Below the pieces are notes generated by a model, which searched no databases, was not told the origin of the DNA, and worked only from the letters and a program-made list of their open reading frames with translations. This document shows, piece after piece, positions 37,760-61,232 of a stretch of 64,000 nucleotides of DNA. How positions within the stretch are numbered: position 1 is the stretch's first letter; the number at the start of each line of letters is the position of its first letter. Source of the DNA: Utricularia gibba (Eukaryota > Streptophyta > Magnoliopsida > Lamiales > Lentibulariaceae). The translations under genes and the position numbers were made by a program. The DNA lies in the NCBI GenBank assembly GCA_002189035.1, contig NEEC01000012.1, positions 1,860,001 to 1,924,000 of the forward strand. The letters run 5' to 3'.

Positions 37760-38882
37760 TCAGGAGAAGGGGGACGGCAAGGCTGTGCAGTTGAGGGCGG
37801 CGAGGGTGGGCTGGATGAGGCTCTGCTCGATGCGGACGGCGATCTCCTGTGTGAAGTGGATGCCATCCCAAAACATGTGGTGTGCGGGGTCCGAGCACAC
37901 GGGCACTCCTGCAGTCCCGCAGAACCTGTTGCTGCTGTAGTCGTACTCTCCTCCGATGCCGCAGCACGCCTTCAGGGCGGTGTCCGCGTGTCCCTCTGCA
38001 ACACACGCCATAACCAGTCAAAAATCGGAACCACGGGTGTATCTATGTATGCATGTGCGTACCTTGATTTAATCTGTCGAGGACCTGCAAGAAGCCCTCG
38101 TCGAAGGCTCCGTAGATGAGGGTGACGTTGGGGAACTCCTGCCCCAAACTGTTGATGCCTCGCCGGAGATAATTGTTCTTCAGGTTGATGAGTCTGTTGA
38201 CGCTGTTGAGGCATCCCAAACGGTCGTACGCCGCGGGATCATCGGAGGGCATGGCGGAGAGGATGTAGGGGAAGCAGCCGAGGGGAGCACTTGCGGGGAT
38301 GACGATGAGCCTGGCGCCCATGGTGATGAGCTCCTGCAAGGCAAGCGGGGTTGGTATCAGTATGCTCTGAAGAACATGGAGGAGAGCTGGACAGAAATGA
38401 ATTGGTTAGTTAGTTACCCTGGTGGCCTTGATTTGTTCTCTGGTGATGGGGCCGATGTAGGACTGCGCTTCCTGGAGGGTTCTCCCTTGCGTCAAGGCGT
38501 ATCCGATGTCATTTGCCTCGAGGTCCCCCAAGAGCACGAGCGAATTGGCCAGCCTGTTGGGGATGCAGTCGGCCGAGGATGAGCCGCACACCGACCGGAG
38601 GTGGGTTCTGAACCATTCGAGCTGGGTGGTGAGGGAAACTGCGTAGGGCGGGATCCGAATGCCCCGGCGAGAGAAGAACCCGTGGTCCATCACCGGACTC
38701 CTGGCGACCGAAAAGATGACGCCGTTGCTGGAATTGGACCTCTCCGACAGGTAAGGAACTATCTCCGGGAACCCGAAGTCAAAGGCGGCGAAGTCGAAAT
38801 CAACGAGGCCGTCGGACCATCGCCCGTTGGGCGTGCCGGGATAAGTCCGGCCGTAGGGGGCACGCGTGTCGGGCAATGATCT
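37760..38882 (-). pseudogene. GDSL-lipase-like copy A, 5'-truncated
   Basis: Three exon pieces match copies C and D: 38882-38418 (partial exon 1), 38333-38063 and 37995-37760, ending LPSPFS. The signal peptide and block I are missing: similarity to the other copies starts at AGATCATTGCCCG and is preceded by TTTGCTTGTTTAG, which is the end of a copia element. What remains keeps the block III-type NDIG segment and the DGIHFT block V. The 3' flank (about 37618-37760) is also similar to the flank of copy B at 43981-44138, so this is a block duplication, not a retrocopy; both introns are present. It lies tail-to-tail with exportin-4. It is probably non-functional, unless an upstream exon beyond the copia element is used. 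Confidence 0.8.
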
Positions 38883-38883
38883 C

Positions 38884-41800
38884 TAAACAAGCAAATAAAG
38901 AATAGCTAGAGGAAGATGAGCGCAGTAAAATATTTCCGTAAAAAAAATCAGCTCTATGCATGAAAAAAAACAGCAGTCTACAAGGCTTATTTCAAGAAGA
39001 CTAAAAACCAGAACACACGCAAAGAACGTGGGTATATCACACGAAACCTCCTCTGCACGCTTTTCTGCACATCAGCAGGTTTAGCCCAGCTATTCCATAA
39101 TAACGTTCCTCTTTACTCCCTCCTCAAGCTGGGGAGGACAAGGTCGTAGCCCAAGCTTGCCGATGATAGTAAAAAACGGTAGAGAATCTAACGCCTTAGT
39201 GAAGACATCAGCAAGTTGCTGTTTAGAAGGCGTGTAGATGGGTAAAAGAAATCCAAGCTTGAATTGATCACGAACGACGTGGCAATTGATTTCTATGTGC
39301 TTCGTCCGTTCGTGGAAAACAGGATTTGCGGTAATGTGAATTGCAGACTAGTTATCGTAGTGCAAGGGAATAGGGAGAACGAAAGTCTCACCAAGTGACT
39401 GCGTCAATTGAACCAGAAAGATAACTCAATAAGCGTTTCAGAGCGATCCAATGTTCAGACCCCGGACAATGAACATACTGAGATAGCTGCTGCACCACAA
39501 AGTAAGATCAGGCCTTGTAAAATTCAAGTAAAGCAGCCGACCAACTAACCCACGATATTTCTCAACACAGATGGGATTAGAAACAGTATTGGCCGAGAAC
39601 TTAAAACTCTGTGGCATGGGAGTGACCACACAAGGAGATAAATCAGCACTCAAAGGCTGAAGAATATCCGAAATATACCGTCGCTGAGATAAGAAAAGCC
39701 CATTAGCAATTCGTGTGAGCTCAATCCCTAAGAAAAAAGTAGCGTCGCCAAGATCCTTGATAGTGAATTTGGCATGCAGATCTGTTTTAAGCTGGGTAAT
39801 GGCATCCAAGGATGAGCCCCCGAGAAGGATGTCATCCACGTAAATCAGAACAACGAGAATAGATATCGCATCCCGCCGCACAAATAGGTAAGTGTCCGAG
39901 GGGCATTGAGAGAAACCCAAGCTTACCAGAAATCGACTAATTTCAAGGTTCCACTGGCGCGAGGCTTGCTTAAGCCCCTATAAGGATTTACGCAGCAGGC
40001 AGACATCTCCCTCCTTGCACCCATATCCTTCTGGAGGGTGCATGTAGATCTCTTCATCCAGGAATCCATGAAGGAAGGCGTTGTTAACATCAATTTGATG
40101 CAGAACCCATGAATGCTTCGCAGTAAGCGCCAACAACAGGCGAATGGAAGTAGCCTTAGCAACCGGTGCAAAGCTGTCATGGTAATCCACCCCTTCCACT
40201 TGTGTATAACCTTTGGCTACCAAGCGTGCCTTGAACCGATCAAGATGCCCATCAGATAATCGCTTGATTTTGTAAACCCATTTGCAACCGATGGCACGCT
40301 TACCCTTTGGCAAAGGAACAACCCTCCATGTTTCATTGTGCTCAAGAGCCTTAATCTCTTGAGACGTAGCATCACACCAGTGGGGGAATCGTGATGCCTC
40401 TCTATATGTGCGAGGTTCAGAAAGGAGACACGGCTCTTCAGGGTCTCCCGCATCAACCTAAAAAATGTGGTAGTCACGCAACCAGTCAGGTGGGATATGG
40501 CTCCTCTGACTTCGCCTAAGTCCCGGATCAGGAGAAGGCACCAAACACGGCGAGGAGTGGTGTGTCCCACCGGACAGAGGGGGAGCATGTGTATTAATGA
40601 TGGGGTGCTCTGAATGATTAGACCCGTCAGGGAGAGAAGCATCAAGCACATCCGCTAGGTGCATCCCTCATAGCATCACGCATACCAAATAGGGACTCAG
40701 GCGGCATAGCAGCAACTGGGACCTCTGGGTCATCATTATCAGGAAACACTAATGGCAATAAAACCTCATGAGAGTCCAGATCGTGAATAACACTCTTCAT
40801 CGGAAATACTCCTTCATAAAATTTGACGTCGCGGGAAATGAACATTGTATGCGTCTCAAGATCATAGAGCTTATACCCCTTATGATCCATGGGGTATCCG
40901 ATGAAAATGCATTTGCACGCCCGACAAGCTAGCTTATTGCCCCGAGAATCCAAATTTGCTGCAAAAGCCAAACAACCAAATATCCGCATATGAGCTAGTG
41001 CTGGGGGTTGGTGCATAAGAACTTCAAAAGGAGTCACCCAATCAAGCACGGAGGAAGGGATGCGATTTATAATGTAAGTTGCAGTGAGAAGAGCTTCACC
41101 CCAAAAATTCTTCGGTACCCCTGATTGAAACATTAATGCTCGCGTAACCTCCAAGAGGTGGCGATGCTTCCGTTCAACTCTGGCGTTCTGCTGTGACCGC
41201 TGAGTGCATGAATATTGATGGCGAATCCCCTTCTGTGCACACAAATTCTGCAAGGCAGAGCTCATAAACTCTCCTCCTTTATCCGTGCGAAGATGCTTAG
41301 TAGTTAGGCGAAAATGATTTTCTACATACGCAAGAAAGGCTTGTATGTAATTATCAATCCCAATCTTATCGCGCAATAAGAAAGTCCATGTAGTGCGGGT
41401 ATGATCGTCCACAATGGTGAGGAAGTATCGCATTCCATTAAAGGTGGTAAGTTCATATGGCCCCCATAAATCACAGCGGAGCAGGTGGAATGCATGTGGC
41501 GCACGGGAAGTGCTCAAAGGGAAGGGGACTTTCTGAAATCGAGCATATTCGCAGACATCACAAGGAACACTAGATAAGCCACATGGAACATGCATATACT
41601 GAGATTTAGAATTTGAAATGTGCCCAAGGTAGCAGTGCCATAGAAGACGTTTATCACCACTATGCAAGGCATCAGCAAAGAAACACATAGAAGGTAGTAC
41701 CACATTAACAAGACTATTGCGGATAACAGGTTTGTGGGCTACTGCAGCATATGCCGAAATCACACTTGATTGGAACGACCTCTTGTCCACCACATAGAGG

Positions 41801-43259
41801 CCATCTCGCACACGACCAACCCCTAGGACCTCATGGGTATCCGGGTCCTGCACCAAGCAATGGTGACTAGAAAACACAACATTGATTCCAACATCATCTG
41901 CAAGCCTCTTGACAGATAGCAAGTTGTACTTAAAACCAGGCAGATACAGGACATTCTGTAGTTTAATCCGCCTAGTTGATGGTATGCTACCCATATGACT
42001 CACCGGGACAAACTGTCCATTAGGTAGAGTCACTTGTAAGTGAGCCACCTGCTTCATGCCCTCAAAACTGATGGTGGAACAACTAATATGGGTAGTGGCT
42101 CCAGAATCAATAATCCACTCCCATGGATTACATACAAAGCATGCAGATGCAGTGTTCATGACTCCTAACACCTGTGGAATCACCATGAAATTTATGATGA
42201 AGCAAGTCCCATGGGGAATGTGGAGAAACGAACAGGAAAGGTTCCTGGGAAACTGAAGAAAGGAAAGATGAAGGGCAACAGGCCGTGCTTGGATGTGAAG
42301 GAAGAAGCGGGCCACTCTTCAAAGGCCCATAAGGTGAACCACACCTACTGAGGCCCCATCCCAACCTGCCTACCCAACAATCAGCAACGGTTGCCTACTC
42401 TGGAGTTGAGGAATAGGCAACGGTCACAAAATCCGAACTCTATAAAAGATACACTCCGCTGTAGATCAAAAAGTAGGGTAATAACCCAAACTCCACAGAC
42501 ATCATTCCACAAATCTGTTCTTCTTTTCTACAACTCTTCAACACCATGGGTGACGTACCTGAGAATTCCAGTTTGGACAGATTGATTGATGGAGAAGATG
42601 ACATGTGACCTTCAGGGTTTTCCCTTGAGGTAGAAGGTGGAATGCTACCCATCAACTTTGTCAATTCTCGCTGAATGACCTGTAAACGATCAGTGGAGTA
42701 TGAGATATCAGAAGCGTATGAGAGAGACTCATCCAAAGGGGTCTCAACACAATGCACAGCAGGTCGATAAGAATTATAAGACACAGGCTGACGAGGTGCC
42801 AACGGCGCTTGTTGATACTGATTCCAAGGGGGGCGAGACTGCTCACAATGAGGTGATTGTGATTTCACATCTTGGGAACCATATTTACCCCCTTTTTTGC
42901 GCCACCAAGGGGGAGGTTCTTTGACCGTGAAGCAATTGTCAGATAGATGACCCTGCTTATTACAAATGGTACAGAACCTGTTATCACGACGCTATCCTGG
43001 TCCGGGATGTGTCCCAGGGTTGGGCTCTCGAATGGACTTAATCATCATGGCTGAGTTGGTGTGGATATTCACCACCTCAGGTGTCCTTCGACACATCTGT
43101 TGCTCAACATTCAAGAGGGCCCCATATGCCTTGGACACTATCATGAATTCATCCATGGCTAGTATCTGATTACGAATCCCATCAAATTTCGGGTGGAGAC
43201 CCAGCAGAAATTGAGTGAGCTTAGTTGATCCAAAGAATCTATCGGCATTTACTGGTATA
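38884..43259 (-). mobile_element. Decayed Ty1/copia retrotransposon, 5'-truncated
   Basis: Read on the minus strand the order is gag, protease, integrase, reverse transcriptase, RNase H, typical of copia. Gag (about 43259-42440) keeps a CCHC knuckle (CTICNKQGHLSDNC). The long frame at 42315-40642 has the protease motif (WIIDSGATTH) and integrase landmarks (CDLWGPY, LRTDKGGEF, RVERKHRHLLEV). RT follows in two other frames, with VLHQIDVNNAFLHG and then VVLIYVDDILLGG (YVDD). An RNase H remnant ends in [11 protein letters not shown] near 39200. A purine-rich tract (GAGGAGGGAGTAAAGAGGAA, minus strand near 39110-39130) precedes a likely 3' LTR of about 230 bp down to copy A. No 5' LTR is present: at 43260 the element is cut inside gag and joined to the inverted-repeat arm. 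Several frameshifts make it inactive. Confidence 0.82.
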
Positions 43260-43990
43260 TTGCATTTGTGCCTTGGGATGAATTTCTCATCATAATGCAA
43301 GCAAAGGTTTTTGGCCTTTGGTTCTTCGAATTCCTTCCGTGGTAGCTGTTTTAGGGTCATTGATATGAGATTCTCCTTTTTTTGTAGTTTGGTTTTCTAT
43401 TTGGGTAGTCTCATTGTCCTGATGGTTTACATTCAAGTGTTCTTTTTCTCTATTTATGTTGATTTTGCCTACTCCTTTGAAGGTTCCGTTCTTGCTGTGT
43501 AGTAATAGCACCAAGCTCGTGGCATCTATAGTGTTGCAAGGATTCTAGAGTGTAACTTGATTCTTAAGGTCATCGGGTAATCCATTCAAGTATATGCGCA
43601 TTTTGTTCATGGGATCCAAGCTTTGAACTGTGACTGCCATTTCCCAGAAGCAATGGTTGTAGTGTTCTAAGCTTCCTATTATAGATAGCTTTGCGAAATG
43701 CATCATATTGGATGTCCAATTCTAAGAACCAAACTGTAGATTTCAAAATCTTTTGAACTCATGACATTTCAAACCGGGAGATTATTGCTCTGTAACCATA
43801 TAAACCAGTTTTGTGCTAAACCCTCTTGATACATTAGATCACACGGTGGTTGTTCTCATCATCTGTGCTATGATGTTTGAATGCATGCTCACATCTGTAA
43901 AGCCATCCTAAGGGGTCGGATTCACCATTATATTTGGGCACTTATTGACGTAATTGGTTGATTCTGGGTTTCCAGTAGTAAAATCTTTCC
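43260..43990 (-). mobile_element. Ty3/gypsy gag remnant (left arm)
   Basis: Degenerate coding sequence read on the minus strand. A damaged zinc-knuckle region (RKEFEEPKAKNLCLHYDEKF) resembles gypsy gag/protease proteins. Upstream pieces with stops resemble the DPLGWLYRCE region of gypsy gag. The same sequence is at 59180-59893 in the right arm and, more diverged, at 53494-54110. Here it is cut at 43260. Confidence 0.6.
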
Positions 43991-44137
43991 GATTGTATAA
44001 AGCAATGGGAAAACTTACACTTGCTGTAAGAGTGTGACAAATCAAAGAATGTGTTGTTAGCTAGCTACATGGGCAAATCTGTGCCATGGAGAAGGGATCC
44101 AGAAGAAGAGGAAAGGGGATTTATTTGTCCCTCAGGC

Positions 44138-45462
44138 TCAGGAGAAGGGGGACGGCAAGGCTGTGCAGTTGAGGGCGGCGAGAGTGGGCTGGATGAGGCT
44201 CTGCTCGATGCGGACGGCGATCTCCTGTGTGAAGTGGATGCCGTCCCAAAACATGTGGTGTGCGGGTTCCGAGCACACGGGCACTCCTGCAGTCCCGCAG
44301 AACCTGTTGCTGCTGTAGTCGTACTCTCCTCCGATGCCGCAGCACGCCTTCAGGGCGGTGTCCGCGTGTCCTTCTGCAACACACGCCATAACCAGTCAAA
44401 AATGGGAACGGCGGGTGTATCTATGAATGCATGTACGTACCTTGATTCAATCTGTCGAGGACCTGCAAGAAGCCCTCGTCGAAGGCTCCGTAGATGAGTG
44501 TGACGTTGGGGAACTCCTGCCCCAAATTGTCGATGGCTCGCCGGAGATAATTGTTCTTCAGGTTGATGAGCCTGTTGACGCTGTTGAGGCATCCCAAACG
44601 ATCGTACGCCGCGGGATCATCGGAGGGCATGGCGGAGAGGATGTAGGGGAAGCAGCCGAGGGGAGCGCTTGCGGGGATGACGATGAGCCTGGCGCCCATG
44701 GTGATGAGCTCCTGCAAGGCAAGCAGGGTTTGGTATCAGTATGATTTCAGGAGACTTCAACATAAATTGAAGGAGTGATGAATTAGTTAGTTACCCTGGT
44801 TGCCTTGATTTGTTCTCTGGTGATGGGGCCGATGTAGGACTGTGCTTCCTGGAGGGTCCTCCCTTGCGTCAAGGCGTATCCGATGTCATTTGCCTCGAGG
44901 TCCCCCAAGAGCACGAGCGAATTGGCCAGCCTGTTGGGGATGCAGTCGGCCGAGGATGAGCCGCACACCGACCGGAGGTGGGTTCTGAACCATTCGAGCT
45001 GGGTGGTGAGGGAAACTGCGTAGGGCGGGATCCGAATGCCCCGGCGAGAGAAGAACCCGTGGTCCATCACCGGACTCCTGGCGACCGAAAAGATTACGCC
45101 GTTGCTGGAATTGGACTTCTCCGACAGGTAAGGAACGATCTCCGGGAACCCGAAGTCAAAGGCGGCGAAGTCGAAATCAACGAGGCCGTCGGACCATCGC
45201 CCGTTGGGGGTGCCGGGATAAGTCCGGCCGTAGGGGGCACGCGTGGCTGGCAATGATCTCCCCATGGCTGGACAAGGACGGAGTTGCCGACGTCGGTGGC
45301 GCCGTCGCCGAAGTGGTAAAGGTAGGGAAACGGGCACACGGGGTTTGAAGGCAAGTGATTACTACTTCTGCTGCTGCTGCTGTTACCCGTCGTCTGGGAG
45401 GAAGCGAGAGCACAGGCACTGGCGAGTGCGACGAGCAGCAAGAGCCGAGAGAGGGAGCCCAT
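44138..45462 (-). CDS. GDSL-lipase-like copy B, frame broken by one missing G
   Basis: Exons 45462-44795, 44711-44441 and 44373-44138, ending LPSPFS. The protein starts with a hydrophobic signal peptide (MGSLSRLLLLVALASA). Block I reads FGDGATDVGN, so the usual catalytic serine is glycine. The run at 45260-45263 has four C on the plus strand where the matching site in copy E (57891 region) has five; this shifts the frame after VQPWG. Everything downstream is intact in the shifted frame (NGRWSDG, EANDIGYAL, DGIHFT). A TATAAAG box lies at 45536-45542, about 75 bases upstream of the ATG. Copy B is head-to-head with C. I regard the break as likely sequence error because the other arm is intact here. 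Confidence 0.8.
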
Positions 45463-47118
45463 GACGATGATGATGATGCTGTGTATGGGAATGCCGAATG
45501 ATGATGATGGGTCTCTGGTCGCAGAGAGCGCGCCTCTTTATAGGCTGCCGGAGAATGGAATTGGAGATGTCAAAGGCCATTTCACAGTTACGTGTTGATG
45601 AATTCAACATACGGCGTCGTGTGCTCCTCACGCGTACGGCTTCCATTCAAAGACCACCTAACCCCTGCACGCCACGTGCACTCAGTCCATATTAAATTTC
45701 TAATATTCTTATTTTACTGTATCTGACGTCACTACAAAATTAGTAAAAGATGAATAATGAACATCACCATTTTTCTCATGCATATATCTAATTTTTTATT
45801 TATTCATTAAATCATTTCGTGTAATAATTAGGAAATAAAAGTGGATGATGCCATGGCCATGTCATCCCAAATGGCAACCCTAGTGGTTGACGAGAATTCC
45901 CCATCCAGTCATGGGCGGCTAAATGGGCAATTCGCCCTTCTGCCCAGTGCTCCAGTTCTCCCCTAGGCCCACGTACTGTATCTGATCATTTATTGGGTTA
46001 TTTTAAATAATAACTATTTTAATTTATTTTAAATATGATTTTTCAAATTTTTTTTAATATTAATTATCACAGGATATCGTGGGATATTTATCAGATTTAA
46101 CATTGTATGTATTTTAAAGTTATCGCGTGTTTATTAAGTATGCTGTTGTACCCTATAAGATATTATGGTATAATATCTTTACAGAGTGTTATTAGATATC
46201 GTTGAATGCGATTGAACGAAATCGAATATAGTAAATTTTAAAATAATTTAGCTTAGAAAAATTGTAAATAAATATAAAAAATTGAAGCACATATAAATAT
46301 TTATTTTAAAAAATATTTTCAAACCTTAAAAATCAATTATTTTTGAAATACAGTTTTTAAAAATACATTTATATGTTTTGTAAACAATTTTTAAAATATA
46401 TATTTAATATTTTTATTAAGTGATAAAATCTTTTTTATTATTTTCTTATAAACATTATCTAATAATGAATATAAATATAAAATACTACATGATTTATATA
46501 AAAATGAAGTAAATGTATTTTGGTTATTTTTATCAATATATGCATATTTTTATTAATTTAACTCATATTTATTAATGTAAGATAGTTATTATTCAAACAA
46601 ATATTAAAAGATGGTGAAATTTGAAAATTTTGATGTTGTAGTATGATTATTCTTCAAAATAATCCATTGTTTATTTGATTTTCTACTGTACCATCATTTA
46701 TAATCATAAATAAATGCCATGATATTTGGAAGACTATAGCATTGAAGACCATAGTATTCATGAGCTTTTATAATATTTATAAAAGTATCTATTTTTAATT
46801 AAAAAAATTAGAAATAGAAATGTGAGACGATGGTTCCGATACAAAATGCTCAAAAGCAGATGCACGTTGTTTAGAAGGGGGGAAAAGACAGCGGTGAGAT
46901 TTGTATTTATTAATGTTTGAATCACTCATCGTATAAAATTCATACGCGGGCTGAAGACAAAGAAAAACACGACGAGAGGAGTAGAAAGTCAGCGGTCCAA
47001 TGAAAACGGAAAAGTTGACATTTTCCGTTCCCGGCAGCCTATAAATAGGCGCGCTGTCTGCGACCAGAAACCATCATCATCATTCGGCATTCCCTTACAC
47101 AGCATCATCATCATCCTC
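45463..47118. promoter_or_regulatory. Divergent promoter region of GDSL copies B and C
   Basis: About 1.65 kb of AT-rich DNA between two outward-facing start codons. Both ends carry the same core: a TATA box (TATAAAG for B at 45536-45542, TATAAATA for C at 47040-47047), then AGGCGCGCT(C/G)TCTGCGACC and a leader with ATC repeats. The middle shows no coding frame. The same interval is repeated in inverted orientation at 56035-57690. Confidence 0.65.
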
Positions 47119-48440
47119 ATGGGCTCTCTCTCTCGGCTCTTGCTGCTCGTGGCACTCGCCAGTGCCTTTGCTCTCGCTTCCTCCCAGACGACGGGTAACA
47201 GCAGCAGTAGTAGTAATCAATTGCCTGCAAACCCCGTGTGCCCGTTTCCCTATCTTTACCACTTCGGCGACGGCGCCACCGACGTCGGCAACTCCGTCCT
47301 TGTCCAGCCATGGGGGAGATCATTGCCCGCCACGCGTGCCCCCTACGGCCGGACTTATCCCGGCACCCCCAACGGGCGATGGTCCGACGGCCTCGTTGAT
47401 TTTGACTTCGCCGCCTTTGACTTCGGGTTCCCGGAGATCGTTCCTTACCTGTCGGAGAGGTCCAATTCCAGCAACGGCGTCATCTTTTCGGTCGCCAGGA
47501 GTCCGGTGATGGACCACGGGTTCTTCTCTCGCCGGGGCATTCGGATCCCGCCCTACGCAGTTTCCCTCACCACCCAGCTCGAATGGTTCAGAACCCACCT
47601 CCGGTCGGTGTGCGGCTCATCCTCGGCCGACTGCATCCCCAACAGGCTGGCCAATTCGCTCGTGCTCTTGGGGGACCTCGAGGCAAATGACATCGGATAC
47701 GCCTTGACGCAAGGGAGAACCCTCCAGGAAGCGCAGTCCTACATCGGCCCCATCACCAGAGAACAAATCAAGGCCACCAGGGTAACTAACTAACCAATTC
47801 ATTTCTGTCCAGCTCTCCTCCATGTTCTTCAGAGCATACTGATACCAACCCCCGCTTGCCTTGCAGGAGCTCATCACCATGGGCGCCAGGCTCATCGTCA
47901 TCCCCGCAAGTGCTCCCCTCGGCTGCTCCCCCTACATCCTCTCCGCCATGCCCTCCGATGATCCCGCGGCGTACGACCGTTTGGGATGCCTCAACAGCGT
48001 CAACAGACTCATCAACCTGAAGAACAATTATCTCCGGCGAGGCATCAACAGTTTGGGGCAGGAGTTCCCCAACGTCACCCTCATCTACGGAGCCTTCGAC
48101 GAGGGCTTCTTGCAGGTCCTCGACAGATTGAATCAAGGTACGTACATGCATACATAGATACACCCGCCGTTCCCATTTTTGACTGGTTATGGCGTGTGTT
48201 ACAGAGGGACACGCGGACACCGCCCTGAAGGCGTGCTGCGGCATCGGAGGAGAGTACGACTACAGCAGCAACAGGTTCTGCGGGACTGCAGGAGTGCCCG
48301 TGTGCTCGGACCCCGCACACCACATGTTTTGGGATGGCATCCACTTCACACAGGAGATCGCCGTCCGCATCGAGCAGAGCCTCATCCAGCCCACCCTCGC
48401 CGCCCTCAACTGCACAGCCTTGCCGTCCCCCTTCTCCTGA
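47119..48440 (+). CDS. GDSL-lipase-like protein, copy C, intact but lacking the catalytic serine
   Basis: Three exons in phase: 47119-47781, 47867-48137 and 48205-48440, 389 residues, the normal length for plant GDSL esterases, which are mostly secreted SGNH hydrolases. It begins with a cleavable signal peptide (MGSLSRLLLLVALASAF, then ALASSQ) and a Ser/Asn-rich linker. Block I is YHFGDGATDVGNS, where family members have FGDS; glycine replaces the nucleophile. Other blocks are kept: NGRWSDGLVDF (block II region), GDLEANDIGYAL (Asn of block III) and MFWDGIHFTQE (Asp and His of block V). So the fold is probably preserved while hydrolase activity is doubtful. TATA box at 47040-47047. Copy D is the same sequence on the other strand. 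Gene role unknown. Confidence 0.88.
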
Positions 48441-48606
48441 GTCTGAGGGACAAACAAATCCCCTTTCCTGTTCTCCTGGATCCCTTCCCCATTTGCCCCT
48501 GTAGCTAGCTAACAACACATTCTTTGATTTGTTCAGCGTTGACAGTAACCACAAATGCATTATCAGTTTCTTCGAAACGTGTCGTGTGTTATGCACCCGA
48601 TTCACA

Positions 48607-51600
48607 GAGATAATTACTTATCACACCAACGGTTAGATAGAGAATTCCAAGATGTAGCCAACTTTGTACTTAGTGCTTCATTTTATTTACACATCATCAT
48701 TTTTTATTTAATTTTTAATTCAATTAATATTTTATATTTATATTTTACACGAAAATTAAAAAAAATAATATATTATATTTATTTCTTTTTATATTATATT
48801 ATAATCAATTTGATCATCACAATAATACATATGTAACATTGATATTTTCAGATTTTAACATTAAAATTCTAAAAAATTTTAAAATTAAAAAACGAAGCAA
48901 TAGTACACATGTGATACTGACATGTTCAGATTTTAACATTAAAATTGTAAAAAAGTTTGGTGTAATATTAAATTCATTTGTTTTTTTTCCAATTCAAAAT
49001 TCAAAAACGAAGTATATAATGAAATACGCATCTCATATCATCATTCTTTCTCCTTTTCTTCCTCTTACAATTTCAATGGCTTCCTCTTGAATTGAGATCC
49101 AATTGTAATGGGGAGGTAACTTGTTTTATGGAAACAATGGTGTGTGCTATGATTCAGCACCACGATTTTCTGCTTCGATTATTCGAGATACCTCAATATC
49201 CATGCTGCTGTCGTTGATTTATGAAGTTATGCAACTATCTTCAAGTGAGTATTCTATTACCATCATTGTGAATTATGTTGCTATGGATTCAACAATGGGT
49301 TTTCAGAGGTACTGACATCCTCTTGATCAAACGGATGTTAGTTTGTCTTTGATTTTTAATCAAAGTCGTATAGTTTCAAGTGTTGATATGTATATTAGTG
49401 CAACTCCAAGCTTCATGAATTTGATCATTCAACAACACACTGGTATGTAATTTTTTTTTCCAAATAACATTTATTATTATTAGTTTTATATTATATTTAG
49501 GATATGTTTTTTGAATTCATATGATTAATTTGTGCTAATGATATATTTTATGTTTTATTTCTAGTTAATGTTGGAGAAGCATCAACCAATCATAATAATC
49601 CATGCACTTTACCAACATATCACAATTCTTCATCACCAGAATCACCTTGTGATGAAAACATATTATGGGATTTGGATCATTTATGTGAGAAAGATGGTAC
49701 TGAGCAAGCTGAAAACGAAATGATGCAAGAAGTTATTCCATCTCCACTTTCTTCAAGTGATGATGATGATGAACAAATAGAAGTCAGGTTTTATGAAAGC
49801 GATGTGGCAATGGAAATTCCAACAGCATTTGAGTTTGAGAAGACTTTAAACTTCTATGATGGGACAAACGGTGATCCATGCAAGGGGGTTTTCTTCAAAG
49901 ATAAAACTTCAATGAAGGAAGCATTGAATTATTATTGTATCACGAAGCTGAAAATGCCTTTTCATGTTGAGAAGAGCAATAACAAGCAGTATGAGATAAA
50001 CTGTATCAACCGAAATGCAACACCTCCATGTGAATGGCGTGTTAGAGTATGGAATAGCAGTGTCACTCAGTTTTGGACTGTGACACAATATGAGGGGCCT
50101 CATACTTGCTTTTCTAACAGTTCCAAAACTATTAGAAATGATAGCATTACTAGCAAATTTGTGTGTCTTCATATCATGAACAAGGTTAAAGCAAATCCAT
50201 GGATGTGTGTTTCTGATGTGATTGATGATATTAATGAAGTTTATCATTTCAAGATATCATATAAGCTTGGATGGACTGCTATTAGGCGTGATATTATGCA
50301 TATGTATGGTACTTGGGAGGAATCGAAGACAAAGCTCCCTTCTTATTTGTTATCTATTAAGGAATCTAACCCAAATAATTCATTTTTATTATTTTACAAA
50401 TATTGATGTTTGTTTACTAACATATTTGTTTTTATCACAGATACTATATTTGAATATGAGAATCTTCGTTCCCATGATGGCAAGCAAATGCTACACCATA
50501 TATTTTGGGCTTTTGGATCATGCGTGCATGGTTTTAGGTATTGTCGTCCAGTTATTACTGTTGATGGAACACATCTATATGCAGGATATAGATATCACCT
50601 TCTAATAGGATGCACACTTGATTGTGACCGTACTATAATTCCACTTGCATTTGCTATTGTTGAGGAAGAATCTTATGAATTCTGCTATTGGTTTTTTAAC
50701 CTTTTAGTTAAGCATATCGTGAAAGGACATCGTATTCGTCTAGTAACTGACCGTGGTGCAGGATTATTATCTGCAATTAAGGATATACCTGCTTTCAATG
50801 AGCCTATGGGAGATTACAGATTTTGTATGCAACATCTACTTGCAAATTTCATATCCCATTTCAGGTCGAAACATTTGGTTGATTTATTTTGGGAAGTTGC
50901 CTTAGGTTCAAAAAAGAAAAGTTTCAGATAGCTATGGAGAAAATCAGAAATAAGAATGAGGCAGCATTTGAGTATCTCCATGAAATCGATCCAAAGCGAT
51001 GAACATTATCATATGATGATGGCATTAGGTAACTTGAAATGGTATAATTTTATTAATATTATTACTATGTTAACCTTATATTTCTTTTTTTGTAGATGTG
51101 GTGTGCATACCACAAGTATCTCTGAATTATTAAACAGTGTTTTACGTGGGGCACAAAGATTACTTCCAAAAGCTCTTGTTGATGCCACTTTCGAGAGATG
51201 TGTTAAGATTTTCACAAATAGTAAAGGGGTCAATTGCTTACTCCATATTCACTATCTGTTTATAGGAAATGTGATGACAAATCAACCAACTACAGGATCA
51301 AGAAATACAATGCAGAGAAAATGAGTGACACTGTGATGTCTCTGAGTAAAAATTCTAGAAAAAACAAATATTATTATATTATTTATTTGACAGATTTGAC
51401 ATGTACTTGTGGAGAGTGGCAGCAAAAAGTTATTCCATGTTCACATGCCATTCAGGTAAGAATTATCTTTTGATATATCATGTGATTTGTAATATCATAA
51501 CAATTGTTAACTTTATTCCTCTCTTAGGTGTACAAGGAATTCAATGAAGATACAAGTTATTATATTTCAAAATATTATCAAGTGAAGATCCTTGCGAAAA

Positions 51601-52142
51601 TATACAAAAGACAATTTAATCCACCAATTCCTGAGAGTGGATGAGGTGCATCTCCATTTGATCTTGTTCACAATCCAGCAATAAGATTGAATATCAGAGG
51701 TTGTGCTAGATCAACACAATTTTCAAGTAGTTTAACTCATATACATTCGAAGAGAAGATCAAGATTTAATTAATTTTAATTTTAGATATTTTCGAGAATG
51801 CGTTTTCGAGACTTTGGGATTTTAATTTGAATAATATTGCTTATGCATTTATTAAATATTTTATTGCATAATTTTTGCATATATTTAATTATTATGTTTT
51901 AATTTATTGATTAATATAAATATTGTAATATAACTATATTGTAATATATTATATTTAAATTTTTCAATATAAAATATGATTAAATATATATTTTTTTTTA
52001 GAAAAGTATATATTTATATGATTTTTTGTACAAAAATAAATAATAAATAATGATGTGGAAATGAAATGTACCATTATAAGACAAAGTTGGCTACATATTG
52101 AAATTCTTTCTCCAATTGTTGATGTGATAAGGAATTTGCCCC
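48607..52142 (+). mobile_element. Mutator-like element (MULE), 3536 bp
   Basis: Imperfect terminal inverted repeats of about 100 bp: the left end begins GAGATAATTACTTATCAC and the right end, reverse-complemented, GGGGCAAATTCCTTATCAC; both continue with ATGTAGCCAACTTTGT. Flanking 9-bp target duplications are CGATTCACA (48598-48606) and CGATTGACA (52143-52151), one mismatch. A 9-bp duplication is the hallmark of Mutator. The interior encodes a transposase. The right arm of the inverted repeat has the uninterrupted target (CGATTCACATATGTTGG on the minus strand near 54535-54555), so the insertion is in the left copy only. Confidence 0.88.
49109..51770 (+). pseudogene. MULE transposase (MuDR-type), degenerate
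   Basis: Exons roughly 49109-49442, 49565-50405, 50441-50932, 51097-51455 and 51527-51770. The first part resembles the PB1-like N-terminus of plant MULE proteins. The middle has the MuDR DNA-binding region (INCINRNATPPCEWRVRVWN and YEGPHTC). The transposase core has CRPVITVDGTHLYAGYRYHL and RLVTDRGAGLLSAI, with two DDE-type aspartates. The end has a SWIM zinc finger (LTCTCGEWQQKVIPCSHAIQ). Lesions: an in-frame TGA at 49313-49315, a missing A in the run at 50910-50915, and TGA where TGG is expected at 51000-51002. It is unlikely to make active transposase as written. Confidence 0.78.
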
Positions 52143-53205
52143 CGATTGACATATGTTGGATACGGGATATGAGTGATAAATATTAATAAGTACATTAAAA
52201 AATGAAAATTTAAAATTGAAATTCAATATTCCACATCTCATTTAATATTTTTTTATTTTTTTATTTATATTAAAAATAATAAAAAAGATAATTACCTTTT
52301 ATATAAATAAAATATTTATTATATTATTTGTAATTTATCAACAAAATTATATTTCATTCGATATATATGTGTATATATATAGATGTAACAACTCAATCAA
52401 GGCAACCTAAGGAACTGTACTATGAATAACATTAGCAACACAAACATATTCTACAAAAACCAATAACTTCGAAAATACATGTGATTGTTTACTCCAGATA
52501 CAACGGACCTCAATTATAATGCTTCTCTAGGTAGCCTTAGGCACGAGTTAGCACTTGAGTCACAAGTCAAATTTGATGAGTCAGGATAATAAAGATAACC
52601 CGTCCAGTCACGAGTCAAAAAGTTATACATTTGACTCGACTCTTATCATGAGTTATTTGGAGTCGAATATTTAAAATACAAACACTGTATTTAATCTATT
52701 TAGTACTTGTCATAATTTGTGAAAAAAATAACATCACAATTTATACAGTACCATTTGTTTTCCACTCAGTGTTTTTCCATAATTTAAAAAAATCAGTAGC
52801 ACTATCTAGAATCACATATACACTAAACCGATGCTTGTCATAACTTGTGAGATATAACAATATTATACAACGCAATATTTGTGTTTCTTAATGCTTATCA
52901 TATATATATATATTAAAAAAATACAAGTTGACTTGGATAAAAAAATATATGATTCAGTACGAGTCAACTCAAGAGTTACTCGAATTAACTCGTACTAGGT
53001 AGTAGTGCCCATATGTAAAAAAGATGGATAATAAATTTTGTGGAGCCCAAGATTGGACACTTGTCTCCTAGAACTATTTTGTGTTTTGTGTGCCTCGTGA
53101 TCTGAAGGCATAGCTTGAAGAAAGTACAAAGTCTCTTCTGTGATCAACACCACGGCAGCATTGGCGCTTGGAGACATTTCTAAGAATTTAATGGGTCCTG
53201 TTACT
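52143..53205. other. AT-rich spacer to the right of the MULE
   Basis: The first 29 bases contain the target duplication and the short tail of the inverted repeat. The rest is AT-rich with runs of TA, and a stretch at 52540-52690 and 52920-53000 with many copies of GAGTCA/GACTCG-like words. No coding frame is supported. Confidence 0.5.
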
Positions 53206-54110
53206 CGTTCTTGCACCATAAATACATCACATTTGGTATAGAGCAATCTTTCTGTACCTGTGAGATGGAAGAATTGAAGGAAATGATAAAAGCTCTTCAC
53301 ACCCAAATGGAACCATGCATGACTGCTTTAGAGCAGCAATTGGAGTCTCATCGTTGGGAACCATCTGTGGAGAGCTCCAAAACTTTACTTTTTGTTGTTG
53401 TTTTTCTTGCAGAATTGCTTGTGAGAGTTCATCCTATTTTGCTATCACCAATCATGTGGGAAAACAACTCGAAATGGAGAAACATGATGCCCCTTACTAC
53501 TAGCAACCCAGAATCAACCAATTACGTGTATAAGTGCCCAAATATAATGCTGAATCCGACCCCTTAGGATGGTTAACAGATGCGAGCATGCATTCAAACA
53601 TCATAGCACACATGATGAGAACATGCACCGTATGTTCTCAAGTAGCAAGAGGGTTTAGCCCAAAACTGGTTTATATGGTTACAGAGGAATAATATCCCGG
53701 TTTGAAATGTAATGAGTTCAAAAGATTTTGAAATCTACACTTTGGTTGGTTCTTAGAATTGGGCATCAGTATGATCCATTTCGCAAATCCATTTAAGATA
53801 GGAAGCTTAGAAGACTACAACCATTGCTTCTGGGAAATGGCAGTCACGGTTCAAAACTATAGATGCCAAGACCTTGGCACTGTTACTACACAGCAAGAAC
53901 TGAACCTTCAAAAGAGTACGTAAAAATCAACATAAAAAGAGAAAAAGAACACTTGACTGTAAACTATCAGGGCAATCAGACTACCCAAATTGAAAACCAA
54001 ACCACGAAAAAAGGAGAATCAAATACCTACCATGGAAGGAATTCGAAGAACCAAAGGCCAAAAACCTTTGCTTGCATTATGATGAGAAATTCATCCTGAG
54101 GCACAAATGC
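53206..54110 (+). mobile_element. Ty3/gypsy gag remnant (spacer copy)
   Basis: A decayed gag start (MEELKEMIKALHTQMEPCMT) is followed by sequence parallel to 59171 onward, including the KEHLTVNYQGNQTTQIENQT stretch and a damaged knuckle region. Many stops and indels. It forms the first part of the direct repeat that also contains a DNL gene fragment. Confidence 0.55.
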
Positions 54111-54527
54111 ATGAACCTATTTTTATTTTAGAATTCATTCACAATGAATTCCAAGATGATGGGGTATTCGAGGTGCATATGTTTTTTTCGATGAAAAAGG
54201 CCTATTTCGATCAAGTAAACTTTTAGCACATGAATCAATTAATCAACCAGTTAACCGATGTAAACCAATTGATTCCCAGAACACTTCTGCTTCATCAAGA
54301 AAACAGCACATAAAAATCTTTCAGTCAACACATACTAATGCTTTCCATATTTATTTCAGAGAACTGAAACCATAAAAAGCCAGCATACTAATGCTTTCGT
54401 GGTTCATCGCAACAAATTGTTAACTTGACTTGGCGAAAAAATGGCAACCGCAGCTTAATTCTTGCCAGCAAGATCCTCTAAGGTAATATTCAAAGAATCA
54501 GCAGACACCTTCTTGACTGTCTCACCC
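53494..54527 (+). repeat. Direct repeat 1, diverged copy of 59171-60333
   Basis: Over about 1 kb the two blocks share order and orientation: the AACCCAGAATCAACCAATTA start, the gag remnant, GAATTCATT(C/G)ACAATGAATTCC, CAGAGAACTGAAACCA and the 3' end of the DNL gene. Substitutions and small indels are frequent, so this duplication is older than the last homogenisation of the inverted repeat. The two blocks flank the GDSL D-E pair. Confidence 0.75.
54455..54527 (-). pseudogene. Fragment of the DNL zinc-finger gene (last codons only)
   Basis: Minus-strand sequence encodes GETVKKVSADSLNITLEDLA plus GKN and a stop, matching the C-terminus of the DNL protein at 60262-60684 with one change (GSAD to VSAD). 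It is cut off at about 54527, where the inverted-repeat tail begins. Only the 3' end and downstream DNA were copied. Confidence 0.85.
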
Positions 54528-54712
54528 ATATCCCGTATCCAACATATGTGAATCGGGTGCATAACACACGACACGTTTCGAAGAAACTGATAATGCATTT
54601 GTGGTTACTGTCAACGCTGAACAAATCAAAGAATGTGTTGTTAGCTAGCTACAGGGGCAAATGGGGAAGGGATCCAGGAGAACAGGAAAGGGGATTTGTT
54701 TGTCCCTCAGAC

Positions 54713-56034
54713 TCAGGAGAAGGGGGACGGCAAGGCTGTGCAGTTGAGGGCGGCGAGGGTGGGCTGGATGAGGCTCTGCTCGATGCGGACGGCGATCTCC
54801 TGTGTGAAGTGGATGCCATCCCAAAACATGTGGTGTGCGGGGTCCGAGCACACGGGCACTCCTGCAGTCCCGCAGAACCTGTTGCTGCTGTAGTCGTACT
54901 CTCCTCCGATGCCGCAGCACGCCTTCAGGGCGGTGTCCGCGTGTCCCTCTGTAACACACGCCATAACCAGTCAAAAATGGGAACGGCGGGTGTATCTATG
55001 TATGCATGTACGTACCTTGATTCAATCTGTCGAGGACCTGCAAGAAGCCCTCGTCGAAGGCTCCGTAGATGAGGGTGACGTTGGGGAACTCCTGCCCCAA
55101 ACTGTTGATGCCTCGCCGGAGATAATTGTTCTTCAGGTTGATGAGTCTGTTGACGCTGTTGAGGCATCCCAAACGGTCGTACGCCGCGGGATCATCGGAG
55201 GGCATGGCGGAGAGGATGTAGGGGGAGCAGCCGAGGGGAGCACTTGCGGGGATGACGATGAGCCTGGCGCCCATGGTGATGAGCTCCTGCAAGGCAAGCG
55301 GGGGTTGGTATCAGTATGCTCTGAAGAACATGGAGGAGAGCTGGACAGAAATGAATTGGTTAGTTAGTTACCCTGGTGGCCTTGATTTGTTCTCTGGTGA
55401 TGGGGCCGATGTAGGACTGCGCTTCCTGGAGGGTTCTCCCTTGCGTCAAGGCGTATCCGATGTCATTTGCCTCGAGGTCCCCCAAGAGCACGAGCGAATT
55501 GGCCAGCCTGTTGGGGATGCAGTCGGCCGAGGATGAGCCGCACACCGACCGGAGGTGGGTTCTGAACCATTCGAGCTGGGTGGTGAGGGAAACTGCGTAG
55601 GGCGGGATCCGAATGCCCCGGCGAGAGAAGAACCCGTGGTCCATCACCGGACTCCTGGCGACCGAAAAGATGACGCCGTTGCTGGAATTGGACCTCTCCG
55701 ACAGGTAAGGAACGATCTCCGGGAACCCGAAGTCAAAGGCGGCGAAGTCAAAATCAACGAGGCCGTCGGACCATCGCCCGTTGGGGGTGCCGGGATAAGT
55801 CCGGCCGTAGGGGGCACGCGTGGCGGGCAATGATCTCCCCCATGGCTGGACAAGGACGGAGTTGCCGACGTCGGTGGCGCCGTCGCCGAAGTGGTAAAGA
55901 TAGGGAAACGGGCACACGGGGTTTGCAGGCAATTGATTACTACTACTGCTGCTGTTACCCGTCGTCTGGGAGGAAGCGAGAGCAAAGGCACTGGCGAGTG
56001 CCACGAGCAGCAAGAGCCGAGAGAGAGAGCCCAT
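54713..56034 (-). CDS. GDSL-lipase-like copy D, same sequence as copy C
   Basis: Exons 56034-55372, 55286-55016 and 54948-54713, 389 residues. All frames read the same as copy C, including the FGDG block I and the EANDIG and DGIHFT segments. TATA box at 56106-56113. It points into the spacer, converging on copy C across the MULE. Confidence 0.87.
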
Positions 56035-57690
56035 GAGGATGATGATGATGCTGTGTAAGGGAATGCCGAATGATGATGATGGTTTCTGGTCGCAGACAGC
56101 GCGCCTATTTATAGGCTGCCGGGAACGGAAAATGTCAACTTTTCCGTTTTCATTGGACCGCTGACTTTCTACTCCTCTCGTCGTGTTTTTCTTTGTCTTC
56201 AGCCCGCGTATGAATTTTATACGATGAGTGATTCAAACATTAATAAATACAAATCTCACCGCTGTCTTTTCCCCCCTTCTAAACAACGTGCATCTGCTTT
56301 TGAGCATTTTGTATCGGAACCATCGTCTCACATTTCTATTTCTAATTTTTTTAATTAAAAATAGATACTTTTATAAATATTATAAAAGCTCATGAATACT
56401 ATGGTCTTCAATGCTATAGTCTTCCAAATATCATGGCATTTATTTATGATTATAAATGATGGTACAGTAGAAAATCAAATAAACAATGGATTATTTTGAA
56501 GAATAATCATACTACAACATCAAAATTTTCAAATTTCACCATCTTTTAATATTTGTTTGAATAATAACTATCTTACATTAATAAATATGAGTTAAATTAA
56601 TAAAAATATGCATATATTGATAAAAATAACCAAAATACATTTACTTCATTTTTATATAAATCATGTAGTATTTTATATTTATATTCATTATTAGATAATG
56701 TTTATAAGAAAATAATAAAAAAGATTTTATCACTTAATAAAAATATTAAATATATATTTTAAAAATTGTTTACAAAACATATAAATGTATTTTTAAAAAC
56801 TGTATTTCAAAAATAATTGATTTTTAAGGTTTGAAAATATTTTTTAAAATAAATATTTATATGTGCTTCAATTTTTTATATTTATTTACAATTTTTCTAA
56901 GCTAAATTATTTTAAAATTTACTATATTCGATTTCGTTCAATCGCATTCAACGATATCTAATAACACTCTGTAAAGATATTATACCATAATATCTTATAG
57001 GGTACAACAGCATACTTAATAAACACGCGATAACTTTAAAATACATACAATGTTAAATCTGATAAATATCCCACGATATCCTGTGATAATTAATATTAAA
57101 AAAAATTTGAAAAATCATATTTAAAATAAATTAAAATAGTTATTATTTAAAATAACCCAATAAATGATCAGATACAGTACGTGGGCCTAGGGGAGAACTG
57201 GAGCACTGGGCAGAAGGGCGAATTGCCCATTTAGCCGCCCATGACTGGATGGGGAATTCTCGTCAACCACTAGGGTTGCCATTTGGGATGACATGGCCAT
57301 GGCATCATCCACTTTTATTTCCTAATTATTACACGAAATGATTTAATGAATAAATAAAAAATTAGATATATGCATGAGAAAAATGGTGATGTTCATTATT
57401 CATCTTTTACTAATTTTGTAGTGACGTCAGATACAGTAAAATAAGAATATTAGAAATTTAATATGGACTGAGTGCACGTGGCGTGCAGGGGTTAGGTGGT
57501 CTTTGAATGGAAGCCGTACGCGTGAGGAGCACACGACGCCGTATGTTGAATTCATCAACACGTAACTGTGAAATGGCCTTTGACATCTCCAATTCCATTC
57601 TCCGGCAGCCTATAAAGAGGCGCGCTCTCTGCGACCAGAGACCCATCATCATCATTCGGCATTCCCATACACAGCATCATCATCATCGTC
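56035..57690. promoter_or_regulatory. Divergent promoter region of GDSL copies D and E
   Basis: Mirror of 45463-47118, of the same length. TATA boxes at 56106-56113 (copy D) and 57611-57617 (copy E). AT-rich, no coding frame. Confidence 0.62.
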
Positions 57691-59088
57691 ATGGGCTCCC
57701 TCTCTCGGCTCTTGCTGCTCGTCGCACTCGCCAGTGCCTGTGCTCTCGCTTCCTCCCAGACGACGGGTAACAGCAGCAGCAGCAGAAGTAGTAATCACTT
57801 GCCTTCAAACCCCGTGTGCCCGTTTCCCTACCTTTACCACTTCGGCGACGGCGCCACCGACGTCGGCAACTCCGTCCTTGTCCAGCCATGGGGGAGATCA
57901 TTGCCAGCCACGCGTGCCCCCTACGGCCGGACTTATCCCGGCACCCCCAACGGGCGATGGTCCGACGGCCTCGTTGATTTCGACTTCGCCGCCTTTGACT
58001 TCGGGTTCCCGGAGATCGTTCCTTACCTGTCGGAGAAGTCCAATTCCAGCAACGGCGTAATCTTTTCGGTCGCCAGGAGTCCGGTGATGGACCACGGGTT
58101 CTTCTCTCGCCGGGGCATTCGGATCCCGCCCTACGCAGTTTCCCTCACCACCCAGCTCGAATGGTTCAGAACCCACCTCCGGTCGGTGTGCGGCTCATCC
58201 TCGGCCGACTGCATCCCCAACAGGCTGGCCAATTCGCTCGTGCTCTTGGGGGACCTCGAGGCAAATGACATCGGATACGCCTTGACGCAAGGGAGGACCC
58301 TCCAGGAAGCACAGTCCTACATCGGCCCCATCACCAGAGAACAAATCAAGGCAACCAGGGTAACTAACTAATTCATCACTCCTTCAATTTATGTTGAAGT
58401 CTCCTGAAATCATACTGATACCAAACCCTGCTTGCCTTGCAGGAGCTCATCACCATGGGCGCCAGGCTCATCGTCATCCCCGCAAGCGCTCCCCTCGGCT
58501 GCTTCCCCTACATCCTCTCCGCCATGCCCTCCGATGATCCCGCGGCGTACGATCGTTTGGGATGCCTCAACAGCGTCAACAGGCTCATCAACCTGAAGAA
58601 CAATTATCTCCGGCGAGCCATCGACAATTTGGGGCAGGAGTTCCCCAACGTCACACTCATCTACGGAGCCTTCGACGAGGGCTTCTTGCAGGTCCTCGAC
58701 AGATTGAATCAAGGTACGTACATGCATTCATAGATACACCCGCCGTTCCCATTTTTGACTGGTTATGGCGTGTGTTGCAGAAGGACACGCGGACACCGCC
58801 CTGAAGGCGTGCTGCGGCATCGGAGGAGAGTACGACTACAGCAGCAACAGGTTCTGCGGGACTGCAGGAGTGCCCGTGTGCTCGGAACCCGCACACCACA
58901 TGTTTTGGGACGGCATCCACTTCACACAGGAGATCGCCGTCCGCATCGAGCAGAGCCTCATCCAGCCCACTCTCGCCGCCCTCAACTGCACAGCCTTGCC
59001 GTCCCCTTCTCCTGAGCCTGAGGGACAAATAAATCCCCTTTCCTCTTCTTCTGGATCCCTTCTCCATGGCACAGATTTGCCCATGTAG
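57691..59088 (+). CDS. GDSL-lipase-like copy E, C-terminus extended by one missing C
   Basis: Exons 57691-58359, 58443-58713 and 58781-59088. Counterpart of copy B with an unbroken exon 1 (five G after CCAT), so signal peptide, FGDG block I and all later blocks are in one frame. Near the end the run at 59003-59006 has four C where copies A, B, C and D have five. This replaces the usual LPSPFS stop with LPSPSPEPEGQINPL and a stop at 59086-59088. The other four copies agree against it, so the extension is probably an error. With five C the stop would fall at about 59013-59015. Confidence 0.82.
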
Positions 59089-59170
59089 CTAGCTAACAAC
59101 ACATTCTTTGATTTGTCACACTCTTACAGCAAGTGTAAGTTTTCCCATTGCTTTATACAATCGGAAAGAT

Positions 59171-60333
59171 TTTACTACTGGAAACCCAGAATCAACCAAT
59201 TACGTCAATAAGTGCCCAAATATAATGGTGAATCCGACCCCTTAGGATGGCTTTACAGATGTGAGCATGCATTCAAACATCATAGCACAGATGATGAGAA
59301 CAACCACCGTGTGATCTAATGTATCAAGAGGGTTTAGCACAAAACTGGTTTATATGGTTACAGAGCAATAATCTCCCGGTTTGAAATGTCATGAGTTCAA
59401 AAGATTTTGAAATCTACAGTTTGGTTCTTAGAATTGGACATCCAATATGATGCATTTCGCAAAGCTATCTATAATAGGAAGCTTAGAACACTACAACCAT
59501 TGCTTCTGGGAAATGGCAGTCACAGTTCAAAGCTTGGATCCCATGAACAAAATGCGCATATACTTGAATGGATTACCCGATGACCTTAAGAATCAAGTTA
59601 CACTCTAGAATCCTTGCAACACTATAGATGCCACGAGCTTGGTGCTATTACTACACAGCAAGAACGGAACCTTCAAAGGAGTAGGCAAAATCAACATAAA
59701 TAGAGAAAAAGAACACTTGAATGTAAACCATCAGGACAATGAGACTACCCAAATAGAAAACCAAACTACAAAAAAAGGAGAATCTCATATCAATGACCCT
59801 AAAACAGCTACCACGGAAGGAATTCGAAGAACCAAAGGCCAAAAACCTTTGCTTGCATTATGATGAGAAATTCATCCCAAGGCACAAATGCAAGATACTA
59901 TTTTTTTCAGAATTCATTGACAATGAATTCCAAGGCGATAGGGAGGCCGAGGGGCATTTGTTTTTCAATGAAAAAGGCCTATTTCGATCAAGTAAACCGT
60001 TAACACATAAATCAATTAATCAAACCAGTTAACCGATGTAAACCAATCGATTCCAAGAACACTTCTGCTTCAACAAGAAAACAGCACATACAAATCTTAC
60101 AGTCAACACATACTAATGCTTTCCATATTTATTTCAGAGAACTGAAACCAAGAAAAAAAAAAGCCAGCATTTGACTGCAGGATCAAGAAAGCCTTATCTC
60201 ATGCTCGTCGTTCATTGCAAGAAACTGTTAACGTGGCTCGGCCAAAAATGGCCACCACAGCTTAATTCTTGCCAGCAAGATCCTCTAAAGTAATATTCAA
60301 AGAATCAGCAGACCCCTTCTTAACTGTCTCCCC
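59171..60333 (+). repeat. Direct repeat 2, parent-like copy
   Basis: Partner of 53494-54527. Because it continues into an intact DNL gene, this is the likely source copy. Confidence 0.72.
59180..60000 (+). mobile_element. Ty3/gypsy gag remnant (right arm and beyond)
   Basis: Same remnant as 43260-43990, here continuing past the arm edge (59893) with KILFFSEFIDNEFQGDREAE. Several stops. It lies downstream of the DNL gene on the opposite strand. Confidence 0.55.
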
Positions 60334-61232
60334 ACGAGAAGCCAAAAACTCTTCAACACTTCCTGGATCCCCAAACCATCCCAGTCGATCAGCAATCAAA
60401 TGCAGATTGTTGCACCCATCACATCTTGCGATGACAATGCCTTTGTCGTACGATTCCCTGCAAGCTGTCTTAACTGATCGTGTATCACAAACTTTGCAGG
60501 TGAACACCATTACGAAATCATGCCTTTTAGACACCTTCAGCTTTGAATTTACTGCAGTCTCTATGCTTCCTGGAGTTGAAGCAGAACTCCCAGTTCCCGA
60601 TGCTGAGCTGCAGGTTCCGGCATCTGGTTCTCGGTGGGCAAGAGCAGTGTTGGATTCAGCAGGAGAGTGACATCTCCTTGTATACTGTCTATTGGTGTAA
60701 GGAAAATACGGTGACGAAGTACCAATCCATGAGATATCTGCAGCAGAAGATTTTCTCTAAAGTTTAAGGGAAAGTAATTGAAAGCGTTACTTGCATTTCA
60801 AATAAGTCTTAACCCTGCTAATTCCCGATACTCTAACATAAACCAGTGAACTTAGAGTGGACCTAAACTGTAACACTAACTGCCACAGCTCGAATGCACG
60901 CAATGATATAAAATAAGCCAAAATGAGCATATAAAATTCGATTCCATGAATCATGCTGATTTTCACTAAGCTTCATACATTTATCTCAGCTATAAATATT
61001 CAGAACCTTAAATTAACCCTAATGCAGATCAAATTGCATCCCCCAGTCCGTTCACTAAATCAAAATACAAACTTAACCAAACCCCAACTTCCGAAAAGGC
61101 AAACAAACCCATATATAAATTGCCATACAGACGTGTGACTTGTGAGAAAAGGATGCGACGTGGGTCACCTCTAGAAAGCCGAATTGGAGGAGATTTTGAA
61201 GCCAGGAGAGAGAGAACCCGACGAGCCGCCAT
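60262..61232 (-). CDS. DNL-type zinc-finger protein (Zim17/HEP1 family), organellar Hsp70 escort
   Basis: Two exons in phase: 61232-61140 and 60684-60262, 171 residues. Exon 1 is an Arg-rich, acid-free leader (MAARRVLSLLASKSPPIRLS) typical of mitochondrial or plastid import. Exon 2 has a Ser/Thr-rich linker and then the DNL zinc ribbon: FTCKVCDTRS and ARCDGCNNLHLIADRLGWFG, with two CxxC pairs, and the characteristic SVEEFL and ITLEDL segments. Family members keep organellar Hsp70 soluble and active. An upstream in-frame ATG at 61289 exists, but the MAARR start gives the better leader. The frame is intact. A diverged fragment of the 3' end is at 54455-54527. Confidence 0.9.

Follow-up and report, generated by a model that had tools for sequence, protein, structure and literature searches.

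In the 64,000-nucleotide stretch of Utricularia gibba DNA analyzed here (hereafter, the window), two near-identical arms of a large inverted repeat each carry a head-to-head pair of GDSL genes, and we consider it likely that this arrangement reflects the concerted evolution of an ancient divergent GDSL pair together with a recent rewriting of the left arm from the right arm. The arms, their genes and the adjoining DNL gene are arranged in the window as follows.

43255..48606, + strand: left arm, comprising the S segment, gene B (-), the common promoter region and gene C (+)
44138..45462, - strand: gene B, GDSL, three exons, with a one-base homopolymer deletion at 45259 that breaks the frame (possibly a consensus error)
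47119..48440, + strand: gene C, GDSL, three exons, intact, with a spliced protein of 389 aa
54547..59898, - strand: right arm, comprising gene D (-), the common promoter region, gene E (+) and the S segment
54713..56034, - strand: gene D, identical to gene C
57691..59015, + strand: gene E, equal to gene B save for two homopolymer indels
59172..60334, + strand: S, flanking gene E on its 3' side and reaching into the DNL gene
53494..54528, + strand: S', an older direct copy of 59172-60334 (84-89%), located in the spacer and ending in a DNL gene fragment
60265..60756, - strand: exon of the DNL zinc-finger gene, to the right of the right arm

Using base-by-base alignment, we confirmed that the near-identical inverted arms of ~5.35 kb described in the original prediction are real in the assembly. 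The core at 43260-48606 pairs with 59893-54547, the coordinates of paired positions summing to 103153 as had been stated, and 0 substitutions were found over ~5.35 kb (5353 bp of arm). The absence of substitutions and the two one-base homopolymer differences reported earlier were likewise recovered, the latter being one additional G in gene B at 44147 compared to gene E (59007) and a C absent at 45259 in gene B compared to gene E (57894). The match extends outward for 5 bp (43255-43259, 4/5 identical) and runs through intergenic arm DNA of 27% GC, which is also identical between the arms. Judged by this alignment, a perfect inverted repeat of 5.35 kb is far above chance expectation. The arms are separated by a non-repeated spacer of 5.94 kb, and the sequences outside the two arms are unrelated. 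The head-to-head organization of the GDSL pairs (B-/C+ and D-/E+) was equally borne out, as was the proposal that the two GDSL genes of each arm are themselves inverted paralogues (B and C share 94.8% identity over 1528 bp). The locus had been called a palindrome of palindromes, a description that is right, with the qualification that the inner palindrome is ancient; the outer one has either a far younger origin or a recent history of rewriting. In addition, S' shows that the window locus had undergone an earlier duplication. Five features were missed in the original prediction: a fifth GDSL copy (A), the MULE at the inner edge of the left arm, the truncated copia element at its outer edge, S' itself, and the occurrence of near-identical inverted pairs of the same family at other loci.

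We searched the genome (100.09 Mb in 516 contigs) for the same gene family, and the closest relatives of the window GDSL genes were again found in inverted pairs, all of them divergent.

C213:2316837-2319577: C213a, arms of 1315 bp with 99.92% identity and a spacer of 112 bp
C213:1827260-1830378: C213b, arms of 1381 bp with 98.84% identity
C451:5638375-5663974: C451, arms of 11.3 kb with 99.97% identity and a spacer of ~3 kb

The mismatches between the C451 arms are limited to one swapped CT/TC and two homopolymer indels, and each of these arms contains one GDG-type gene and one ordinary GDS-type gene (FGDSTVDSGN); a third copy (5691911-5695168) shows one mismatch across ~2.9 kb and is diverged thereafter. 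A single GDSL copy is carried by C3. C213b repeats the window arrangement GDSL-/GDSL+/DNL with every gene in the same orientation, and intact DNL copies number just two genome-wide, one in the window and one beside the GDSL pair at C213b. Because this order is shared and no other intact DNL copy exists, the divergent pair must be older than the window/C213 split and is ancient. Values of dS between the window and the C213 loci are 0.67-0.70 for GDSL and 0.43 for DNL, and within the window dS falls to just 0.064 between C and E and to 0 between C and D. The right arm is probably the older location, since it continues into the DNL gene, which is adjacent also at C213b. No shared synteny was found beyond the DNL gene, the protein tried there (63608-63997) belonging to a repeat family with >150 matches.

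C213a and C213b form a pair of segmental duplicates; downstream of the stop codons, like matches like between the two loci, minus gene with minus gene and plus gene with plus gene. Defining informative sites as those at which the four C213 copies split two against two, we counted 26 sites in the gene body that unite the copies of one locus and 0 that unite orthologous positions; in the 3' flank the counts are 0 and 158, respectively, the switch in grouping falling within ~ten bases of the stop codon. The C213 introns contain locus-grouping sites as well, together with a common 5-bp indel. The gene bodies of the C213 pairs have thus undergone concerted evolution. Moreover, the C213a spacer (C213:2318151-2318262; L031 6151-6262) corresponds to the C213b plus-gene promoter in inverted orientation (93.9%), as is expected of a product of recombination between inverted arms. 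These 112 bp constitute a single promoter, flipped relative to the sister locus; the plus gene of C213a may no longer possess a TATA promoter of its own.

A comparable switch is encountered in the window itself, to the left of the left arm.

37614..38883, - strand: GDSL copy A, 5' end absent, with a C/D-like body and a B/E-like 3' flank
38884..43260, - strand: Ty1-copia element, the 3' LTR end of which abuts gene A, with the 5' LTR and leader missing

Upstream of the stop codon, copy A agrees with gene C at 42 sites and with gene B at 3, and past the stop codon it agrees with B at 32 sites and with C at 5 (Fisher p=5e-14 for the switch), so that copy A is a mosaic. Exon 1 of copy A stops exactly at the copia 3' LTR, and the lack of a 5' end is explained by the copia element abutting this exon. 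The copia element is in turn truncated where the left arm begins on its outer side, a 5-bp microhomology (TGCAA) linking the arm to copia gag sequence; the missing 5' end of the element was sought in the spacer and not found. That the copia insertion created the arm is an idea we rejected: nowhere in the window is the 5' part of the element present, and instead of an LTR end the arm edge shows the 5-bp microhomology. Together, C213a/C213b and copy A show that gene conversion between inverted copies happens in this GDSL family. GC3 amounts to 0.79 in the GDSL genes vs 0.70 in the single-copy C3 relative, a value that is faintly suggestive of GC-biased conversion, and no more than faintly because the single-copy relative already stands at 0.70.

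On its inner side the left arm is bounded by a transposon, the decay of which bears on the age of the arms.

48607..52142, + strand: MULE (MuDR-type transposon), 3.5 kb, within left-arm sequence
48612-48716 and 52032-52136: terminal inverted repeats of the MULE, imperfect, ~105 bp, 81%
48598..48606, + strand: left TSD copy, CGATTCACA, in agreement with the right arm
52143..52151, + strand: right TSD copy, CGATTGACA, one mismatch in 9 bp
52152..52176, + strand: resumed left-arm homology past the MULE, ~25 bp, matching 54522-54546 reversed with one mismatch

All three hallmarks by which a MULE is recognized, namely a MuDR transposase domain (DBD_Tnp_Mut, E=1.4e-5, at the cut-off), terminal inverted repeats and a TSD of 8-11 bp, are found in the 48607-52142 element. 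As the MULE sits inside arm sequence, a left copy was already there when it inserted. The end branch of the MULE is 0.032, and its private substitutions number 44 in 2671 sites; those that lie within the transposase frames are distributed 6:8:4 over codon positions 1:2:3, with no third-position excess, and we read them as neutral decay of ~2-3%. Given that the MULE has decayed by 2-3% and that its TSD is mismatched, yet the adjoining arm shows 0 substitutions, the arms would have been converted recently. Arms as old as even a fraction of the MULE decay would be expected to show dozens to hundreds of substitutions, and none is seen. The TSD part of this argument has to be read with the caveat that the mismatch is a single base, and that the final bases before the end of homology could match by chance.

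According to the model that we favor, closely spaced inverted gene bodies would act as mutual repair templates, being homogenized time and again between start and stop codon, with divergence left to the 3' flanks. The two-gene unit is present a second time at the window locus, in inverted orientation, and its left copy would recently have been rewritten from the right arm, presumably through strand invasion with synthesis-dependent repair. Synthesis would have started at the MULE edge (48606) and proceeded through C, B and the S segment to the position corresponding to 59898, after which the new end of the left arm would have been joined to the broken copia element via the TGCAA microhomology. 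The MULE, where homology is interrupted, would form the inner limit of the rewritten stretch. The sequences themselves show the concerted evolution at C213, the mosaic structure of copy A, the position of the MULE inside arm sequence and the microhomology junction; the right-to-left direction, the strand-invasion step and the timing are what we infer.

The original prediction had offered duplication, conversion or a fold-back assembly artefact as explanations for the identity of the arms. Conversion is favored by the family relatives and the aged MULE, and a recent duplication alone is the lesser option. Under it, template switching would very recently have duplicated the segment in inverted orientation, with immediate insertion of the MULE and no conversion between the arms, a scenario that we regard as possible but rather unlikely. 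It is compatible with 0 substitutions across 5.35 kb, which are equally expected from a duplication too young to have diverged, and with the microhomology junction at the outer edge, which is typical of template switching; the 11.3-kb arms and the third copy at C451 show that large recent duplications do occur in this genome. However, the MULE bordering the arm gives the impression of an old element, with its 2-3% of private, neutral-looking substitutions and its TSD mismatch, and arms of the same age evolving at the same rate would hold well above 100 substitutions. Copy A additionally provides evidence of an earlier inverted copy on the left. Part of the private substitutions of the MULE could predate its insertion, because a decayed element can move in trans, and a variant of this scenario, in which the MULE decayed before moving and the arms are too young to differ, is a minority prospect to which we assign limited probability.

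An assembly error, be it a chimeric fold-back read or the misjoining of a second haplotype, would account for the only differences between the arms being single-base homopolymer indels, as a PacBio consensus leaves them. Such a fold-back, however, lacks a long unique spacer and carries the flank along, whereas here the arms are 5.94 kb apart and differ in their outer flanks, and their borders coincide with the TSD and with the copia breakpoint at its 5-bp microhomology; similar inverted pairs with diverged flanks are also present at C213a/b and C451. A U. gibba PacBio assembly generated with HGAP comprises 581 contigs, with a mean subread length of 10,385 bp at 88x (PMC5793159, review), and if this is the assembly used here, such subreads suffice to cross a 5.35-kb arm. 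We therefore rejected the fold-back artefact on spacer, flanks and junctions, and consider any assembly artefact very unlikely. Even less probable, to the point of being negligible, is the idea that the identity of the gene bodies stems from purifying selection and not from conversion. The between-locus dN/dS is indeed low (0.10-0.19), but homogenization extends to synonymous sites and introns, as seen from the locus-grouping intron sites and the 5-bp indel at C213, and the window arms are identical through AT-rich intergenic DNA; purifying selection as the cause of identity was rejected by the introns and synonymous sites. Conversion between inverted copies, with recent rewriting of the left arm, is thus the explanation that we retain.

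What is being homogenized in these pairs is a GDSL-fold protein with an unusual catalytic motif. The protein of gene C matches Pfam PF00657 over its whole length (E=4.2e-13, 50.4 bits, cut-off 23.6), has a signal peptide-like N-terminus, and the block III Asn and the block V Asp-His look present. In every clade copy that could be read (B-E in the window; L031 and L033 at C213; L024 and L026 at C451; L029, L035 and L036), block I reads FGDGATDVGN, Gly replacing the catalytic Ser, and the GDS serine was absent from all of them; a distant single-copy relative on C414 also has FGDGATDVGN. Owing to this replacement, the product is better termed a GDSL-fold protein than an active GDSL lipase. Based on the Ser-to-Gly change in every copy and the between-locus dN/dS of 0.10-0.19, the clade protein is kept by selection but is probably not a classical GDSL hydrolase. 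In gene E, a one-base difference near the stop codon alters the C-terminus, possibly as a consensus error. In each near-identical pair examined, in the window (44147, 45259) and at C213 (minus copies C213a-, L031, and C213b-, L033), one member has a frame-breaking one-base homopolymer deletion; these deletions may be either PacBio-type consensus errors or a sign that one member of the pair is decaying. Literature searches on U. gibba GDSL genes and on the loss of the catalytic serine in plant GDSL proteins (MVP1) yielded nothing usable.

A speculative extension, which we judge improbable, is that selection for a high and uniform dosage of this secreted, Ser-less GDSL-fold protein maintains inverted, mutually correcting pairs at several loci; if true, palindromes would represent an adaptive means, off the sex chromosomes, of keeping copies identical in a compact genome. 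Irrespective of this, one ancestral divergent pair, present at the window, C213a and C213b with datable flanks, offers a natural replicate test of concerted evolution, in which homogenization ends sharply at the stop codon across replicate loci. With it, the rate, tract length and direction of inverted-gene conversion could be measured in a plant, away from any known sex chromosome. It also cautions that such duplicates, when dated by dS, come out far younger than they are.

Palindromes on mammalian Y chromosomes are known to undergo arm-to-arm conversion; we know of no sex chromosome in the U. gibba genome. The process is already known, and the locus described here exemplifies it clearly in a plant, with nested inverted repeats and internal replicates; a literature search on one-sided conversion in plants gave nothing usable. 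In overall organization, the locus resembles the palindromes with arm-to-arm gene conversion on the Salix purpurea W chromosome, which are likewise gene-bearing plant inverted repeats with several arms, evidence of conversion and retrotransposons inside (PMC7023750). The Salix arms, however, are ~20 kb long and lie within a 200-kb non-recombining sex-determining region (PMC7023750), whereas those of U. gibba measure 1.3-11 kb and occur at several unlinked places. Compared to plant GDSL esterases/lipases (PF00657), the clade protein shares the whole-protein match, the signal peptide-like N-terminus and the block III/V residues, but differs at the catalytic position of block I, where Ser is replaced by Gly. 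Finally, a mammalian inverted gene pair with long-lasting concerted evolution, BMP8A/BMP8B, shows the same pattern of paralogues that are closer within a locus than true orthologues, confined to the gene body (PMC2720389). Unlike the BMP8 genes, which are located ~235 kb apart (PMC2720389), the GDSL genes are 0.1-15 kb apart and divergent, and the pair itself has been duplicated as an inverted unit.
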